Shown in pieces: positions 37,869 through 44,436 of a DNA stretch of 64,000 nt. A model generated the notes under the pieces. That model made no database searches and was not told the origin of the DNA. It saw only the letters and a program-made list of their open reading frames with translations. Every line of letters begins with the position of its first letter. Position 1 is the stretch's first letter. The DNA is from Chthonomonas sp. (GTDB taxonomy: Bacteria > Armatimonadota > Fimbriimonadia > Fimbriimonadales > Fimbriimonadaceae). Made by a program: the position numbers and the translations under genes. The stretch spans positions 186,001 to 250,000 of the forward strand of contig JAEURR010000003.1 of assembly GCA_016788115.1 (NCBI GenBank). The letters run 5' to 3'.

Positions 37869-39068
37869 TCAAGCGCTGTGGATGCGCTGACGAACAGTGA
37901 TGTCGCCGGTGATTGCGCTTACGTCGAGCGTCCCCGTACCTTCACCGAGCGTCCCGGTGATACGGCGCTGATCGCGCTGGACGTCCTGCATGTCCAACAC
38001 ACAATCGACGGTCCCGCGCAGGGTAGACAGAGTCACCCGCACGTCCGAGCCGTCCGCGATGCCGATCGACGCGTTCCCTTGGACCGACCGGACCGTCACC
38101 GTCCCTGAGATCGGAGTGCTCAGGTCCATCGAGATGTCTCCCGACACGGCCTCCAGGCTGATCGAGCTACCAGAGCAGTTCACAAGCGAGAGATCTCCGG
38201 ACGCCGTGCGTAGGTTCAAAGCTCCAGTCACGTTTTCCAGCTTGACACTGCCGCTCTTGTCCTCGACCACCACCGTAGTGCCGGTCACGTCTTTGAGAAA
38301 TACGTCTCCGTGCGAAGTCGTGACTTCGACCGCGCCCTCGACGCCGCTGATCTTGACGTCACCGCTGTTGCTGGCGACTCGGCAAGGTCCGTGCGTCCCG
38401 TCCACGTCGATCGAACCGACCTGTCCGCGGACGTCCACATGTGCCTTCACCGCGAGATGAATCTCCAAATCCGCTGTGATGTCGGAGCTGTCCGGGTGGC
38501 GGATCGTGACCGATCCATCGTTCTGCTCAATGACCGGCGAATACTCTTCGGCTCGCTTCTTAGCCTCCTCGGCCACTCCTCCGCGCACCTTGGCACGGGC
38601 GATGAGCTTGGTCTTCTCGGCCCCACCGATCACGCGGACATCGCCCACGCGGTTTTCGACTTTCACGAGCCCTCCCTCGGCAACCTCGAACTCCAGCTCG
38701 ACGTCTTTGCGTTCGGTCGCGCCAAAGATATCAAAGCTAATGCGCCCTTGCTTCACGCCTTCGACCGCATGCTTGATTGCCTCTTGGCCTTTGGTCACGC
38801 CGGTCTTCACCTGCGACGCGACGTCTTGCCAGTTGACCGACTTCGCGACCTCTTTACCAATCTTCTCGATCGATTCGATGATCCCGGCAAAAGGATCCTT
38901 GGCGTCGTTTGGCAGCGGTGGAGGCGTCGTGTTCGTGGTCTGCTCAGTCGATTCGGCGGCTCCGTCGCTGGTGCCGTCGAAGGCCTCCATGAGCTCGGCG
39001 GCATCCTCGGGCGAGAGCTTGCCCTCCTGGACCAGTTTCATAATGCGTCGTACTTCTTCTTTGTTCAT
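37869..39068 (-). CDS. SHOCT/DUF4097 adhesin-like protein
   Basis: 399 residues. The first 35 (MNKEEVRRIMKLVQEGKLSP) are a SHOCT-like helical motif. A linker is followed by a long DUF4097 beta-helix (about 130-399) with repeating strand pairs such as GDVKISGVEGAVEV and GDVFLKDVTG. Members often act with stress or envelope regulators, for example YvlB in Bacillus. The ATG overlaps the DUF2089 gene's TGA (ATGA), so they are co-translated. Location is probably cytosolic, since no signal peptide is seen. Confidence 0.85.
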   Translation of the reverse strand: MNKEEVRRIMKLVQEGKLSPEDAAELMEAFDGTSDGAAESTEQTTNTTPPPLPNDAKDPFAGIIESIEKIGKEVAKSVNWQDVASQVKTGVTKGQEAIKHAVEGVKQGRISFDIFGATERKDVELEFEVAEGGLVKVENRVGDVRVIGGAEKTKLIARAKVRGGVAEEAKKRAEEYSPVIEQNDGSVTIRHPDSSDITADLEIHLAVKAHVDVRGQVGSIDVDGTHGPCRVASNSGDVKISGVEGAVEVTTSHGDVFLKDVTGTTVVVEDKSGSVKLENVTGALNLRTASGDLSLVNCSGSSISLEAVSGDISMDLSTPISGTVTVRSVQGNASIGIADGSDVRVTLSTLRGTVDCVLDMQDVQRDQRRITGTLGEGTGTLDVSAITGDITVRQRIHSA

Positions 39069-39460
39069 GAACTCACTCCACGCAGGCGCTCTTTCGCCTC
39101 TTGAGCGGTGATTTCGCCCCGCTCCAACGCCTCGATCACGTGCAACTTCTCCGGGTTCGGGCTCTTCTCGGGCTTCTCGACAGGGGTCAACTCCAACGAT
39201 TGGAGCAGCGCGTCCAATCGCGCCTTGACGGTCGGATAGCTCAGGCCCAATTCGCGCTCTACGGCATTGATCACGCCGCGACATCGCAGAAACGTTTCGA
39301 GAAGATGGTATTGCTCCTCGTCAAGCTGCAACATCCGCGGGATGTCGAACCGGGACCGAATCGTCACATCCCCGTCGATGGTCTGCAGCTCGGTGATCGC
39401 GAGCGGCTTTCCAGAGATCGGGTCCTTACTAGGAATCGGTCGATGTTGATAAGATTTCAT
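39065..39460 (-). CDS. DUF2089-family regulator
   Basis: 131 residues from the ATG at 39460, behind GGAGG. DUF2089 signature: RSRFDIPRMLQLDEEQYHLLETF and GVINAVERELGLSYPTVKARLD, a helix-turn-helix of DNA-binding type, then a C-terminal helical part (AQEAKERLRG) resembling SHOCT helices. The usual N-terminal zinc ribbon is absent, so this is a shorter form. Partnered with the SHOCT/DUF4097 gene. Two palindromes lie upstream and may be its operators. Confidence 0.85.
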   Translation of the reverse strand: MKSYQHRPIPSKDPISGKPLAITELQTIDGDVTIRSRFDIPRMLQLDEEQYHLLETFLRCRGVINAVERELGLSYPTVKARLDALLQSLELTPVEKPEKSPNPEKLHVIEALERGEITAQEAKERLRGVSS

Positions 39461-39563: not shown

Positions 39564-39869
39564 TCATACGGCGACAAGGATCTTCATGACCGTTTCTCCA
39601 CGGTAGCGCAGGTCCACCACACGCTGAACGGCGTACGCCAACCCATCAATGTCGAGGGTATCGCCGGGACTGCCCGGACTCCCCTCCGGGACGTACACCG
39701 TCATGAACGGGCGGCTCGTCGTGACTCCCAACTCGGAGTCAGGCAAGTAGATACGCGCTTGCGAGGTCGAGATCGGCACCGCCACCGCAGTGGCGGGCTG
39801 TCCTCCCACAGTGATCGACTCGCCGTGCTGCTCGATCACCTTTTTGAACCGCCGTTGCACCGCGCTCAT
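39564..39869 (-). CDS. Phage head-completion/tail-attachment-like protein
   Basis: 101 residues, strand-rich. The C-terminal half (GDTLDIDGLAYAVQRVVDL) has the strand pattern of lambda gpFII-like or gp16-like head-tail joining proteins: GD-x-hydrophobic-x-hydrophobic-G, then alternating strands. ATG at 39869 overlaps the previous stop (ATGA). It is the last gene of the capsid cassette; no tail gene follows. Family assignment is by fold pattern, not by a strong motif. Confidence 0.6.
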   Translation of the reverse strand: MSAVQRRFKKVIEQHGESITVGGQPATAVAVPISTSQARIYLPDSELGVTTSRPFMTVYVPEGSPGSPGDTLDIDGLAYAVQRVVDLRYRGETVMKILVAV

Positions 39870-40282
39870 GGGGCCACCGCCCCTTGCTTGTCCTTGGCCA
39901 TGAGCACTGCGGCCGTCCGAGCGAATTCTGGATCGGCGCGCAAGAAGGGCGACAATCGTGCCCAACCTTGCTCGCGCATCGCGCGGACATCGTCGTGAAG
40001 GTCCTTCGCGGTGACCTGTAGCGCACCCACGTTCATTCCGTCAAAGAGCCCAGGAACCCGGATCAGCACCGCGAGCATGTCGGCGGTCACGAGTTCAAGA
40101 GCTGCCAAGTTCAGGGTCGACTGCAGCCCCGAGTTCCCCGTGTCCGCCACATAGACGGGCTCGATGGCGTAGTTCAACACCGGGACCCAAGCACTGATCA
40201 GTCCATTGATCTCGCTCACGTACTCGGCGGACTCAAGCGAGAGCCGCTGCTGGACTGCGGCAACGCTTACGGAGACTCCCAC
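39866..40282 (-). CDS. Phage head-tail connector-like protein
   Basis: 138 residues, mostly helical, with GTG start behind a full GGAGGTGA ribosome site. The first helices (VAAVQQRLSLESAEYVSEING) and the middle (LNLAALELVTADMLAVLIRV) resemble small head-tail connector proteins, which are helical bundles. I cannot name the family. Its order directly before a head-completion-like gene and after the capsid genes fits a connector. Overlaps the next gene's start by four bases. Confidence 0.5.
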   Translation of the reverse strand: MGVSVSVAAVQQRLSLESAEYVSEINGLISAWVPVLNYAIEPVYVADTGNSGLQSTLNLAALELVTADMLAVLIRVPGLFDGMNVGALQVTAKDLHDDVRAMREQGWARLSPFLRADPEFARTAAVLMAKDKQGAVAP

Positions 40283-40542
40283 GGGTCACCTCCGGACGAG
40301 AATTGTGCGCGCATCGCGTCGGCCCATCGGCGTAGAACCACATTCACTTCCACCATGCCCGCCTGAAGCGACTCCAGCGCCGCCCCCAAACGATCGTACT
40401 GGTGTCCCTGACGCTCCACGAGCCGGTCCAGGAACTCCATCATCTGCTCGGCGGAGGCACGCTGCTGAATGAGACTCAGACGTGCGATGGCGAATGTCGC
40501 GCTCACCACCGCACCAAGAAACAGCCACAGGTCTTTGCTCAT
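40267..40542 (-). CDS. Small protein with one N-terminal helix and coiled coil
   Basis: 91 residues: one hydrophobic segment (about 5-24, LWLFLGAVVSATFAIARL), then a long amphipathic helix (about 30-80). This is a holin- or membrane-anchor-like layout, but other members of phage head modules have similar small proteins. It overlaps the following gene by 16 nt and the preceding one by four bases (ATGA). Not recognised. Confidence 0.5.
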   Translation of the reverse strand: MSKDLWLFLGAVVSATFAIARLSLIQQRASAEQMMEFLDRLVERQGHQYDRLGAALESLQAGMVEVNVVLRRWADAMRAQFSSGGDPWESP

Positions 40543-40769
40543 AGCGCGACCCCTAACGCCCGCGCCAGCGCCATCGTCCTTGCACGCAGCGTCTCCAACT
40601 CTCGCCGGAGGGCCGCGAGCTTCGCTTGCACCTCCGGGTCGTTTCGGGCCGTGGCGGCGAGGTCCGTGGCCGATCGCTCAACGGCCTGAAGCTGGGCCAC
40701 CGCCTGAGCCACCGCCGACCAGGCGCTTCCCGAGGCACCTCGACAGATCCGATCCCATAGGCCGCGCAT
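40539..40769 (-). CDS. Small helical protein of the capsid cassette
   Basis: 76 residues, almost all helix with Ala, Leu and Arg-rich heptads (about 15-70), no membrane segment. GGAGG precedes the start: 6 nt before a TTG at 40772 and 9 nt before the ATG at 40769; I chose the ATG. Its start overlaps the capsid gene's stop (TGATG). Function unknown; perhaps a scaffold or minor capsid part. Confidence 0.5.
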   Translation of the reverse strand: MRGLWDRICRGASGSAWSAVAQAVAQLQAVERSATDLAATARNDPEVQAKLAALRRELETLRARTMALARALGVAL

Positions 40770-41704
40770 CAAATCTGTCCTCCGAATGCGGTTTGCCAGA
40801 GGCCCAGCCCAACGTTGTACCGCGCCCGAACTCCGTACAAGAAACGATCGCGCATGAACGCCGACTCGCTTTTGGAACTGGCGTCCAGTGCTGCAAACTC
40901 CACGGGCACATCGGACCGCTGCTGCAAGATCACCGCACGAATCGGACGTTTTGTATCAAGCAAGTACCAGTAGTCGTCGGCGCCTCCCGTCAGATAGGGC
41001 GAAACAACGACCTTGACCTTCCCCTGGAACGCATTCAGATAGTTGGTCGCGCTTGCGGTGTCGGTAGCGTTACCCTTGTACACCACTACCGGGCTGTCCA
41101 CGATCTCCGACGCTAGCCACTGGAGCTTTGGACCAACAACGAGCGTATCGGGCACGATCCCCAGCGGAATTCCCTGGTCGTCCGGAACCGTCATCATCTG
41201 GTTAATAGCGTCGGCGAGCGCATTGGTGGAGAGCGCCAAACTGGTCCTATTGGACCAAGTGCTTCCACCCACCGGGTGCTGACCCGAGAACAGCGACACT
41301 CCATCGTAGCCCGCTGCGTCGAACCCTGAAACCAGCGCTTGGATGACCATGTGATGCCGATGCTGCGCCACGCGGTATGCCAGATCCCGAATCCGCAGTC
41401 GGATCAGATCAATCTGATCGTCCTCAATCGCCTTTCGCTCAACCGCAATGGTCGATTCGAAGACCTTGTCCTCGATGCTGACCGCGTACGCACTGAGTCC
41501 GGAAGGACGACGTTCGTCCACGAACTCGCGCATCGGCGGGGTCGAACCCAGCCACGCATACTTTTGCACCGGAGTCGAAGTGTGGATCACAGTGGCGATC
41601 CGCTGGGCGATGCTCTCGTCCACTTCACTGCGGTACGCCGATTCAAACTCTGCCCTCAAACCTGGCAATAGCAGGTCGGGGATGTCACTTCTAGTAAGAG
41701 CCAT
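40769..41704 (-). CDS. Major capsid protein, Mu gpT-like
   Basis: 311 residues, the size of Mu-like major head subunit gpT. Seen: RPSGLSAYAVSIEDKVFESTIAVERKAIEDD, DQIDLIRLRIRDLAYRVAQHRHHMVIQAL, LFSGQHPVGGSTWSN and LVVGPKLQWLASEIV, which match the gpT pattern of an HK97-fold protein. The start is set by AGGAGGG, 3 nt before the ATG. It lies between the decoration gene and two small genes. No sign of decay: the frame is full length. Confidence 0.8.
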   Translation of the reverse strand: MALTRSDIPDLLLPGLRAEFESAYRSEVDESIAQRIATVIHTSTPVQKYAWLGSTPPMREFVDERRPSGLSAYAVSIEDKVFESTIAVERKAIEDDQIDLIRLRIRDLAYRVAQHRHHMVIQALVSGFDAAGYDGVSLFSGQHPVGGSTWSNRTSLALSTNALADAINQMMTVPDDQGIPLGIVPDTLVVGPKLQWLASEIVDSPVVVYKGNATDTASATNYLNAFQGKVKVVVSPYLTGGADDYWYLLDTKRPIRAVILQQRSDVPVEFAALDASSKSESAFMRDRFLYGVRARYNVGLGLWQTAFGGQI

Positions 41705-41718
41705 AGACCCTCCTTGAG

Positions 41719-41734
41719 TCTAACCAAATGGTTA
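41719..41734. repeat. TTAACCATTTGGTTA-type near-palindrome, copy 1
   Basis: Minus strand reads TTAACCATTTGGTTAG. It overlaps the stop of the decoration gene, in the 27-nt gap before the capsid gene. Two further copies lie at 50769 and 52278. Confidence 0.7.
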
Positions 41735-42172
41735 AACCGAATAATTGTCGATGCGAACGCGGACCCCGGCGAATCCAGCCGACGAGGTTTCGAGCGCCAC
41801 GAGCGTGCCGATCTTGTAGTTGTTGGTGAGGCCAGTGGTCACCACCTGGACTTCCCAGTCAGTGTTCACATAGGCCTCCTTGCCGAGATCGGCGACGGCC
41901 GGTGAGAAGCCGGACGCGGGCTTGAAGACAAACGAGCCGGTCTTGGTGACCGTGATCTGTTTGTCACCGGCGGCGCCCGCAAGGTTGTCCACCGTCTCAT
42001 TGGCCACGCCCACAAACTTGAGCGACGCGGTCCCATGCGCCATCGGCACAGCATAGCCCGACGTATTGAGCCCGACGAGGGCCCCTTTAAAGATTCGAGT
42101 CGCCGCAGTCTTGTACGCGACGACGAGGCCGGGGCGTTCGAACGCCTCGTACCCTTGGGTGAGTTGAGCCAT
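41732..42172 (-). CDS. Phage capsid decoration/cement-like protein
   Basis: 146 residues, beta-rich, no signal peptide. GAFVG-like turns and TVDNLAGAAGDKQITV strands recall DUF2190-like or phage decoration proteins, which often lie between the protease and the capsid genes. The start follows GAAGGAGG. The position is the strongest support: protease, this gene, then capsid. Other possibilities are a small capsid-associated protein of unknown fold. Confidence 0.65.
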   Translation of the reverse strand: MAQLTQGYEAFERPGLVVAYKTAATRIFKGALVGLNTSGYAVPMAHGTASLKFVGVANETVDNLAGAAGDKQITVTKTGSFVFKPASGFSPAVADLGKEAYVNTDWEVQVVTTGLTNNYKIGTLVALETSSAGFAGVRVRIDNYSV

Positions 42173-42182
42173 ATGGCCTCCT

Positions 42183-42968
42183 TCAGTGTTGATCGCGCTT
42201 GCGCTTTGCGATCGTGTTCAAGTCCATTTCGGGGAAGTACCGGCGATAGAACGCGGCTTCCTCGGGGTCAAGGTCCGTGGCAGGCGCACCGGATGCGCCC
42301 GGAGCGACCTCATGAAACGCCGCATGGGGCGGCTGCCGCTCGATCATCGCGATGAGCAGATCACGGAGGGCGGTCGGCTGACCACCAAATTCGACCGCAT
42401 CACCGGATCGTAGCAGTGCCTTGGCGAATGCGGCCTGCGAAGGGATCAACTTCCCCTCCTTCAGCCACTGGTCAATCTGTCGATCGGTCTCCGAGTCATT
42501 CCCGCGCTTGCGCGCTCGGTCGTACTCGGCTTGCCAATCGACACTCTCGAGCCCGCCGGTGAACCACACGTCCTCCGCAGAGAAAAGCTTGGCGTCGGGG
42601 ATGCGCGGCACGCTGACGAGGCTGACCTCGCGGATGTTCGTCATGTCGTTTGAGAGGCCGAGGGACAGCGACTTCGCTCCCGAACGCTCAATGAGCGCAT
42701 TGGCCTCGGGCGTGAGCTGGACGAGCCCGAAGAGCTCCTCCCCTTCCGCACTCACCTGGGTCAGGAACCCGAGTTCCAGCGGTGAGCGAGCATGTTCGAT
42801 GAGCACGGGGACGGGGTCTCTGAACGTACCCTCTAGCGTCTGCAGCGTCTCCTGGGTGATCGTCACGCCCTTGTCAAGAAACACGCCCGTCTGAAACAGC
42901 TTGGCCCGACGGGAGATCCAGTCTTCGCGCGCCACAAACTCCGGCGGCAAATCGTGGGATTTAGGCAT
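42183..42968 (-). CDS. Phage prohead protease/scaffold (Mu gpI-like)
   Basis: 261 residues. The N-terminal half (about 15-150) is a strand-rich protease-like domain: FLDKGVTITQETLQTLEG, PVPVLIEHARSP and LGFLTQVSAEGEELFGLVQ. His in the VLIEHARSP motif and Ser in SLSLGLSNDM are plausible catalytic residues, as in Mu gpI-type proteases. The C-terminal half is helical and acidic, as expected of a fused scaffold. The GGAGG site lies 8 nt before the ATG at 42968. It is the first gene of the cassette; no portal or terminase lies upstream. Confidence 0.75.
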   Translation of the reverse strand: MPKSHDLPPEFVAREDWISRRAKLFQTGVFLDKGVTITQETLQTLEGTFRDPVPVLIEHARSPLELGFLTQVSAEGEELFGLVQLTPEANALIERSGAKSLSLGLSNDMTNIREVSLVSVPRIPDAKLFSAEDVWFTGGLESVDWQAEYDRARKRGNDSETDRQIDQWLKEGKLIPSQAAFAKALLRSGDAVEFGGQPTALRDLLIAMIERQPPHAAFHEVAPGASGAPATDLDPEEAAFYRRYFPEMDLNTIAKRKRDQH

Positions 42969-42995
42969 TCATCGTTCCTCCATTGTTAGGATCGT

Positions 42996-43025
42996 TGAAT
43001 AGGTGTTAAAGCAGACAAACGTCAA
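42996..43025 (-). promoter_or_regulatory. Promoter of the capsid cassette
   Basis: Minus strand reads TTGACG (43025-43020), an 18-nt spacer and TATTCA (43001-42996), a conventional -35/-10 pair, followed by a 27-nt leader with GGAGG before the protease ATG. The -35 is one arm of CGTCAA-CTCAT-TTGACG (43020-43036), which also covers the pyk stop. Confidence 0.6.
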
Positions 43026-43036
43026 CTCATTTGACG
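43020..43036. repeat. Inverted repeat at the pyk end and cassette -35
   Basis: CGTCAA (43020-43025) and TTGACG (43031-43036), 5 nt apart. It could be an operator for a phage-type repressor or a short terminator hairpin for pyk. Confidence 0.4.
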
Positions 43037-44436
43037 GTTTCGACGTAAATCAGATTCGTGTTTCCGACCTGCCCGGCAGGGACCCCCGCGGTCACGATGA
43101 TGGTGTCTCCAACCTTTAGTTTTTTGTGCCGGATGAAGGCGTTGACCGCCGCGTGCATGACCTCATCGGTTGAGGGCGGAAGATCGACGCGTACGGTCTC
43201 GACGCCCCATTGGATGCTGAGGTGGGCCTTCGTTCGGTCGTTCCAAGTGGCGCAGTAGATGGGACACTTAGGCCGGAACCGACTCACCATTCTCGGCGTG
43301 AGACCGCTCGTGCTCGTGGTCACGATCGCCTTGGCCCGGACGGTTTGAGCAAGCTGGACGGCCCCGTGTGCGACCGCCTCGGTCAAGAGCTCGGCACCTT
43401 GTGCCGTCGGCTGCCATTCTCGCAGACGCTCGGCGTGGTCAAATGCGGCTTCAGCCTTTTCCGCGATGCGGTGCATCGTGCGCACGGCTTCGATCGGGTA
43501 GGCCCCCGCCGCAGTTTCGCCGCTCAGCATCACCGCGTCGGTGCCGTCCAAGATCGCATTGGCGATATCGGTGGCTTCGGCCCGTGTAGGCCGAGCGTTG
43601 GTAATCATGCTTTCCAGCATCTGGGTGGCGGTGATGACCGGCTTGCCAGCGCGATTGCAGCGCGCAATGATGTGCTTCTGAGCCATTGGCACGTCCTCCA
43701 GATCCATCTGCAACCCGAGGTCGCCGCGTGCGACCATAATCAGGTCGGCCACCTTCAAGATGTCGTCGATATCCCGAAGCGCCTCTTTCGTCTCGATTTT
43801 TGCGCACAACCGGATGCTTGGATCGTACTGATCGACCAAGCGTCGCAGCTCGCGCAGATCCGCGGCATGCCGGACGTAGCTGAGCGCAATGAAGTCGACA
43901 TTGGCCTTGGCCGCTTCGTACACGTCCTCGCGGTCTTTGTCGGTGAGCGCAGGGACGGCGAACGCTCGATTCACCAGGGTAATTCCTTGTCGCGACTTGA
44001 TCCGCCCGCCGTTGACGACCTTGGCTTCAAACTGCTCACCCGACCTGGAACCGATCTTGAGCTCAACGTCGCCGTCGCCCATGAGCACGCGCGCGCCGGA
44101 TTGCATCGCTTCGAAAATCTCATCGCCGGGCACCTGGATGATCGAGCCCGGCTCGCGCCCCACAGTCAGGGACTGTCCGGCGTGGACATCGATCCCGCCC
44201 CCCTCAAACGTGCCGATGCGGAACTTCGGGCCTTGAAGGTCGGCCAGCAAAGCGATATGCCGCGTCTCGGTGTCGTGCTTCCGGATCCAGTCCACCCACT
44301 GGTGTTTGGCGCTCCAATCGCCGTGGCTGCAGTTGAGCCGCGCGACGTTCATCCCCGCGTCGACCAGGTTTGAGATGTGCCCTTGGGAGTCCACCGCGGG
44401 GCCGAGTGTGCATACGATCTTGGTGCGACGCTTCAT
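43027..44436 (-). CDS. pyk: Pyruvate kinase
   Basis: 469 residues, the usual length. Motifs: KIVCTLGPA at the start, LNCSHGD with the active-site Asn, DFIALSYV, KIETKEALRDID with catalytic Lys and metal Glu, MVARGDLGLQ, KPVITATQMLESMI and MLSGETAAGAYPIEAV. It makes pyruvate and ATP from phosphoenolpyruvate at the end of glycolysis. purF lies upstream in the same direction, 44 nt away; the capsid cassette lies downstream after 58 nt with its own promoter. Confidence 0.97.
   Translation of the reverse strand: MKRRTKIVCTLGPAVDSQGHISNLVDAGMNVARLNCSHGDWSAKHQWVDWIRKHDTETRHIALLADLQGPKFRIGTFEGGGIDVHAGQSLTVGREPGSIIQVPGDEIFEAMQSGARVLMGDGDVELKIGSRSGEQFEAKVVNGGRIKSRQGITLVNRAFAVPALTDKDREDVYEAAKANVDFIALSYVRHAADLRELRRLVDQYDPSIRLCAKIETKEALRDIDDILKVADLIMVARGDLGLQMDLEDVPMAQKHIIARCNRAGKPVITATQMLESMITNARPTRAEATDIANAILDGTDAVMLSGETAAGAYPIEAVRTMHRIAEKAEAAFDHAERLREWQPTAQGAELLTEAVAHGAVQLAQTVRAKAIVTTSTSGLTPRMVSRFRPKCPIYCATWNDRTKAHLSIQWGVETVRVDLPPSTDEVMHAAVNAFIRHKKLKVGDTIIVTAGVPAGQVGNTNLIYVETVK

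Follow-up and report, generated by a model that had tools for sequence, protein, structure and literature searches.

Seven phage-type head genes at positions 39564–42968 of the window (the whole stretch of DNA analysed here, 64,000 nt) raise the question of what such genes do in a chromosome of the Fimbriimonadales, with no terminase, portal, tail or integrase gene beside them. The initial annotation had left four options, namely a domesticated capsid, a gene-transfer-agent (GTA) head block, a satellite or a protein compartment, and we examined the products of the cassette, the rest of the genome and related genomes with these in mind.

Layout and products of the cassette

The seven ORFs are all on the minus strand, uninterrupted and tightly packed (Table 1), and, as had been described, they lie full length and contiguous between pyk and a DUF2089 regulator-like gene. 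The gene junctions had been called ATGA-type overlaps, which is correct for c4/c5 and c6/c7; the capsid gene and c4 share TGATG, and c5 and c6 overlap by 16 nt. The capsid gene is single-copy in its genome, and the composition of the cassette is host-like, with a GC content of 0.616 against 0.614 for the window and a likewise equal GC3. Immediately upstream of c1 there is a promoter-like site, and a terminator-like stem coincides with the pyk stop; sites of both kinds were about equally frequent in shuffled sequence. On the other side, beyond the DUF2089 gene, come a DUF4097, an EVE-domain and a PurF gene. A SHOCT-like DUF2089-C domain is encoded both by the DUF2089 gene and by its DUF4097 neighbour (together 37869–39460), and in the congener G001 the two are again next to the cassette; they could regulate it or be there by chance.

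Table 1. Features of the cassette and its flanks (positions in the window), followed by the variable gene of the compact clusters in other families (positions in the loci named).
Feature	Position	Strand	Evidence or remark
c1, head maturation protease/scaffold, 261 aa	42183..42968	-	phrog_976 E 1.1e-11; PF10123 weak; His59 and Ser102 invariant
c2, capsid decoration/cement-like protein, 146 aa	41732..42172	-	phrog_1731 E 1.5e-21; close-pair dN/dS 0.03-0.11
c3, gpT-type major capsid protein, 311 aa	40769..41704	-	PF10124 (Mu-like_gpT) E 2.3e-58; phrog_371 E 2.4e-63
c4, small helical protein, 76 aa	40539..40769	-	putative role only
c5, small protein with N-terminal transmembrane helix and coiled coil, 91 aa	40267..40542	-	hydropathy, family conservation
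c6, probable head-tail adaptor, 138 aa, GTG start	39866..40282	-	model pLDDT 88; weak fold matches
c7, stopper-type head completion protein (predicted fold), 101 aa	39564..39869	-	model pLDDT 90.5; stopper fold matches; PF05354 weak
Promoter-like site upstream of c1	42982..43009	-	no commoner than chance expectation
Terminator-like stem at pyk stop	43020..43036	-	near chance level; would part cassette from pyk
Flank, DUF2089 regulator-like gene	39065..39460	-	DUF2089 match 2e-20; beside cassette also in one congener
Flank, pyruvate kinase (pyk), host gene	43027..44436	-	PF00224 match 6e-107
Variable gene, L189	10333-11550
Variable gene, L191	9915-12872
Variable gene, L197	12412-13476
Variable gene, L313	970-3195

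Profile searches identified the 311-residue product as a homologue of gpT, as proposed, and likewise bore out the protease/scaffold and decoration-like assignments. The two invariant residues of c1, found in an alignment of 21 sequences, may be catalytic by analogy with the Mu-type protease family. Neither c6 nor c7 gave a convincing sequence match on its own, and structure models of both were built from alignments of relatives. The c7 model matched the stoppers of phage T1, FCWL1 and lambda and SPP1 gp16 with probability 0.99–1, which suggests a stopper-type head completion protein by fold. The helical c6 model found its best matches in the SaPI1 and SPP1 necks, weakly (E 0.3–0.4); position and helical layout agree with this match, and c6 is probably the head-tail adaptor. 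Of the two head-completion-like proteins annotated initially, c7 is thus upheld by its fold, and the adaptor likeness of c6 is weak by fold search. Equivalents of c4 in relatives start with a transmembrane helix, for which the window copy scores low; c5 may have a holin- or spanin-like role, and c4 and c5 together a putative lysis or membrane role.

Packaging genes elsewhere and the distribution of the system

The initial annotation described the cassette as lacking terminase, portal, tail and integrase. At the locus this description stands, also for tail and integrase; for the genome it fails in respect of terminase and portal. A search for the terminase nuclease domain revealed one large terminase (TerL) on contig C7 of the same genome, directly followed by a Mu-type portal (PF06074, E 8.5e-60). 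Its neighbours are a fatty-acid desaturase gene on one side and a DUF4397 gene on the other; no further phage gene adjoins the pair. The motor motifs of TerL are intact, and both Walker motifs (A and B) as well as the first nuclease motif are kept in 18 of the 18 TerLs compared.

Capsid, portal and TerL each occur in 42–48 of the 61 genomes of the order, nearly always in one copy. Around the capsid gene, the order protease-decoration-capsid-small-small-adaptor-stopper is found, whole or in its first part, in about 18 other genera, a recurrence that excludes its assembly by chance. The host genes beside it vary among genera. Conservation of the pyk-cassette-DUF2089 context in relatives, a check proposed at the outset, was not found: only the DUF2089 side, with its DUF4097, EVE and PurF neighbours, is shared, and only with G001. 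TerL-portal pairs are likewise isolated in relatives, and in some genomes TerL and portal are themselves separate; the head genes of Fimbriimonadales lie in two to four unlinked loci. In the complete genome G041, portal (1.23 Mb), capsid (1.41 Mb), TerL (2.27 Mb) and adaptor-stopper (2.56 Mb) are at four separate sites. G020 and G009, each a single contig, have about 1.03 and 0.76 Mb of contig, respectively, between the cassette and the TerL-portal pair. One genome that is 99% complete (G018) has portal and TerL and no capsid, possibly an early stage of loss of the system. As separate observations, capsid-carrying genomes are smaller in family f1, especially in genus g20, where sizes are about 2.6–3.5 Mb with capsid and 3.3–6.5 Mb without (Mann-Whitney p 0.0007, which ignores relatedness and is based on rounded sizes and an incomplete capsid-negative list); and a record titled 'Methanoregulaceae archaeon' (L116, JADZEW010000005.1) holds a Fimbriimonadales cassette and is probably a mislabelled MAG.

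Across the Armatimonadota the capsid gene was detected in 102 of 237 genomes (88 of the 194 good ones, about 45%) and in 60 of 140 genera, almost always as one copy. Families outside the Fimbriimonadales carry one compact cluster, TerS-TerL-portal-protease-decoration-capsid-(variable gene)-adaptor-stopper, which ends with two small proteins, one XhlA-like and the next holin-like, and then an amidase (PF01520) or an M15 or M23-like peptidase. Several clusters contain host genes, between TerL and portal in L309 and L310 and, as a GNAT acetyltransferase gene, between capsid and decoration in L318; the genes inserted among the head genes of these three clusters are aquaporin-like and GNAT acetyltransferase genes, and such clusters are perhaps intermediate steps toward the scattering seen in Fimbriimonadales. 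The variable gene in the capsid-adaptor gap of several families (Table 1) looks structural, encodes about 350 to 985 aa and is absent from the window cassette; it could be a receptor-binding or head-fibre protein. G038, whose capsid is 39% identical, stands apart in having long downstream genes that are peculiar to it, and families f10, f11 and f13 hold more distant capsid relatives that may be true prophages.

No linked tail gene was found in the clusters of any core lineage. The tape-measure family PF10145 is absent from the genome under study, and its single certain match belongs to an ordinary prophage of G007; the sheath family PF04984, likewise absent from this genome, was detected in 3 of 34 genomes. 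As a further tail probe, a baseplate-like protein from G038 gave only weak matches, in two other genomes, the stronger one inside a prophage, and was discarded. A scan of viral contigs with the single capsid sequence found no relative. When the capsid alignment was used, the nearest relatives were 38–43% identical, and several were tailed phages; the best annotated phage match is about 37% identical. Several of the nearest viral contigs continue into tail genes, including a long tape-measure-like protein, whereas the core chromosomal clusters do not.

Selection, joint retention and descent

Frame-shift decay in other genomes, which had been named as a possible objection, was not borne out: 62 capsids and 27 portals contain zero internal stops. 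The proposed dN/dS check on the capsid gene gave 0.04–0.05 in the closest pairs (dS about 0.3–0.4), indicating strong purifying selection. TerL close pairs gave 0.09–0.16, and the values for protease, decoration and adaptor are also well below 1; where dS is near 1, the medians are larger and can be trusted less. The TerL of G036 has one internal stop. Apparent internal stops in two other TerLs (G016 and G033) fall where the alignment ends, as was seen for PurA too, and were dismissed.

Unlinked head genes that work only together are expected to be lost jointly from their separate places. Among genomes of at least 90% completeness, 36 have both capsid and portal, 0 have the capsid alone, 3 have the portal alone and 12 have neither (Fisher 3e-9, uncorrected for relatedness). 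Mapped on a PurA host tree for 30 members of the family, the presence of the capsid switches about ten times; portal and TerL either follow the switch or stay as they are, and never go the opposite way; a sign test restricted to well-supported host branches had too few pairs for significance. Gene and host distances within the family are weakly correlated in Mantel tests, and genus g1 is unrecovered in the gene trees, yet unrejected (AU p 0.13, 0.35 and 0.084); some exchange among relatives is therefore possible. Family f5 forms a supported clade in both the capsid and the portal tree, and f5, f19, f30, f31, f33 and f34 do so in the phylum-wide capsid tree, where one origin for all core capsids is neither supported nor rejected (AU p 0.097). 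Taken together, the sequence comparisons point to long-term, mainly vertical maintenance under purifying selection, with weak congruence within the family.

A proposed GTA-like head-and-packaging system and its alternatives

We propose that the cassette forms the head part of a phage-derived head-and-packaging system, long domesticated, GTA-like and apparently tail-less, that packages host DNA and is maintained by Armatimonadota like any other genes of the chromosome; we consider this reading probable. Of the options listed initially, the domesticated capsid or GTA head block is the best supported because the genes are intact, single-copy, host-like in composition, under purifying selection and spread through the phylum. 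The features expected of a GTA that we found are a phage-derived capsid, portal and large terminase in a host genome, particle genes with no integration, replication or self-mobilising gene beside them at either locus of this genome or at the loci of relatives, and the long upkeep described above. We call the system GTA-like, a name that stops short of a proven gene transfer agent; its particles are predicted from the genes.

In such a system, some trigger would bring about joint expression of the unlinked loci, and a protease-matured gpT shell would assemble on the portal. TerL would fill the shell with chromosomal DNA, since there is no phage genome to package, and adaptor and stopper would seal the filled head. 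Release may proceed by lysis through the small membrane proteins, or in other families through the holin-like protein with the amidase or peptidase, after which the particles would bring host DNA to kin, like gene transfer agents. Delivery is the weak link in this scheme: tail proteins might be encoded elsewhere, a tail might be borrowed, or the particle might be tail-less. A more specific version, in which a tail-less gene-transfer or DNA-export machine was domesticated early in Armatimonadota and then dispersed, with dedicated lysis for release and uptake via competence or a borrowed tail, is one that we entertain tentatively; if true, its particles would export DNA in a manner unlike that of the tailed gene transfer agents known to date.

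One alternative builds on the conserved stopper, the face at which a tail docks. Host-encoded heads might be filled and then given the tails of a resident or infecting tailed phage, as by a capsid-forming satellite, either moving host DNA or depriving the phage of tails. Every core lineage retains head, packaging and stopper genes and lacks tail genes, and some carriers do hold ordinary tailed prophages; many others, however, have no recognised tailed prophage, as judged by two families only, and the scattered loci include no integrase or replication gene and show no mobility, so that we regard this alternative as unlikely. The same absence of any linked tail in the core group, together with the lysis genes that still accompany head genes in several families, would also fit capsids that transfer no genes, in which DNA-filled or empty heads freed by lysis serve biofilm DNA export, nutrient release, or as decoy or defence. 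This seems quite unlikely, as the long-conserved stopper and adaptor suggest a head that is completed and sealed, and not just the release of DNA. A satellite as listed initially is disfavoured because integration and replication genes are absent and the head genes scattered; nor is the system an integrated mobile island of the capsid-forming PICI kind, as host genes flank every module.

Slowly decaying remnants of old prophages, with head genes left by chance, would account for the phage derivation of the genes, for their absence from about half of the genomes and for the few partial copies. Strong purifying selection on intact frames, exact gene sets across contexts, single copies and the joint loss of unlinked genes make this explanation highly improbable; the broken frames and relaxed selection of a decaying prophage were not seen, and neither was the single element with head, tail, transposase or integrase and lysis genes that would mark an intact Mu-like prophage. 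An encapsulin-like compartment, in which a gpT shell holds protein or enzyme cargo, could be built from the cassette alone, which supplies shell, protease and decoration protein, but TerL, portal and stopper, which serve only to pump and hold DNA and are needless for a compartment, are conserved and lost together with the capsid. This last option, which would call for a shell without portal or terminase partners, is barely credible.

The favoured GTA-like reading can be set beside known systems. The best-studied gene transfer agents are those of Alphaproteobacteria, and GTA-like genes are scattered also in Rickettsiales. RcGTA is spread over five loci with at least 24 genes in all, and almost 60% of alphaproteobacterial genomes carry GTA-like genes (PMC10883770). 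The present system resembles RcGTA and CcGTA in its phage-derived structural and packaging genes, long host retention, lack of mobility genes and division among several loci. It differs in that the head genes themselves lie in two to four loci, the head is of the Mu/gpT type, no tail was found, the phylum is another one and host-DNA packaging is a prediction. Capsid-forming phage-inducible chromosomal islands (cf-PICIs) perform their own packaging and borrow tails. Like them, which encode their own capsids (PMC10803314), the system has its own head and packaging genes; unlike them, it has no adjoining integrase, replication or regulatory module; its genes are scattered and single-copy, and it is a lineage-wide system, not a mobile one. 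Its capsid, decoration protein, protease and portal are homologous to those of Mu-like and other gpT-type tailed phages; in several of the nearest viral contigs tail genes follow, unlike in the chromosomal copies. With encapsulins and other HK97-fold compartments the system shares a domesticated phage-type shell protein, but here portal, terminase, protease and stopper have been retained with the shell.

We found no earlier description of a GTA or head system in Armatimonadota in the open-access literature. If the proposed reading is true, the system would be an independent GTA-like case in a poorly studied phylum, with head genes that are dispersed and lost together, and it would open to testing the reasons for keeping lethal particle production, the set of parts that cannot be spared and the need for any tail. 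Prophage finders that seek clusters can miss scattered systems of this kind. An ordinary 45.5-kb prophage was reported in the first complete Fimbriimonadia genome (PMC4072686). Some of the genomes searched here also hold ordinary prophages, distinct from the scattered system, in which terminase, portal and other head genes are contiguous (L213, L216, L217 and L218; genomes G007, G012, G009 and G011).
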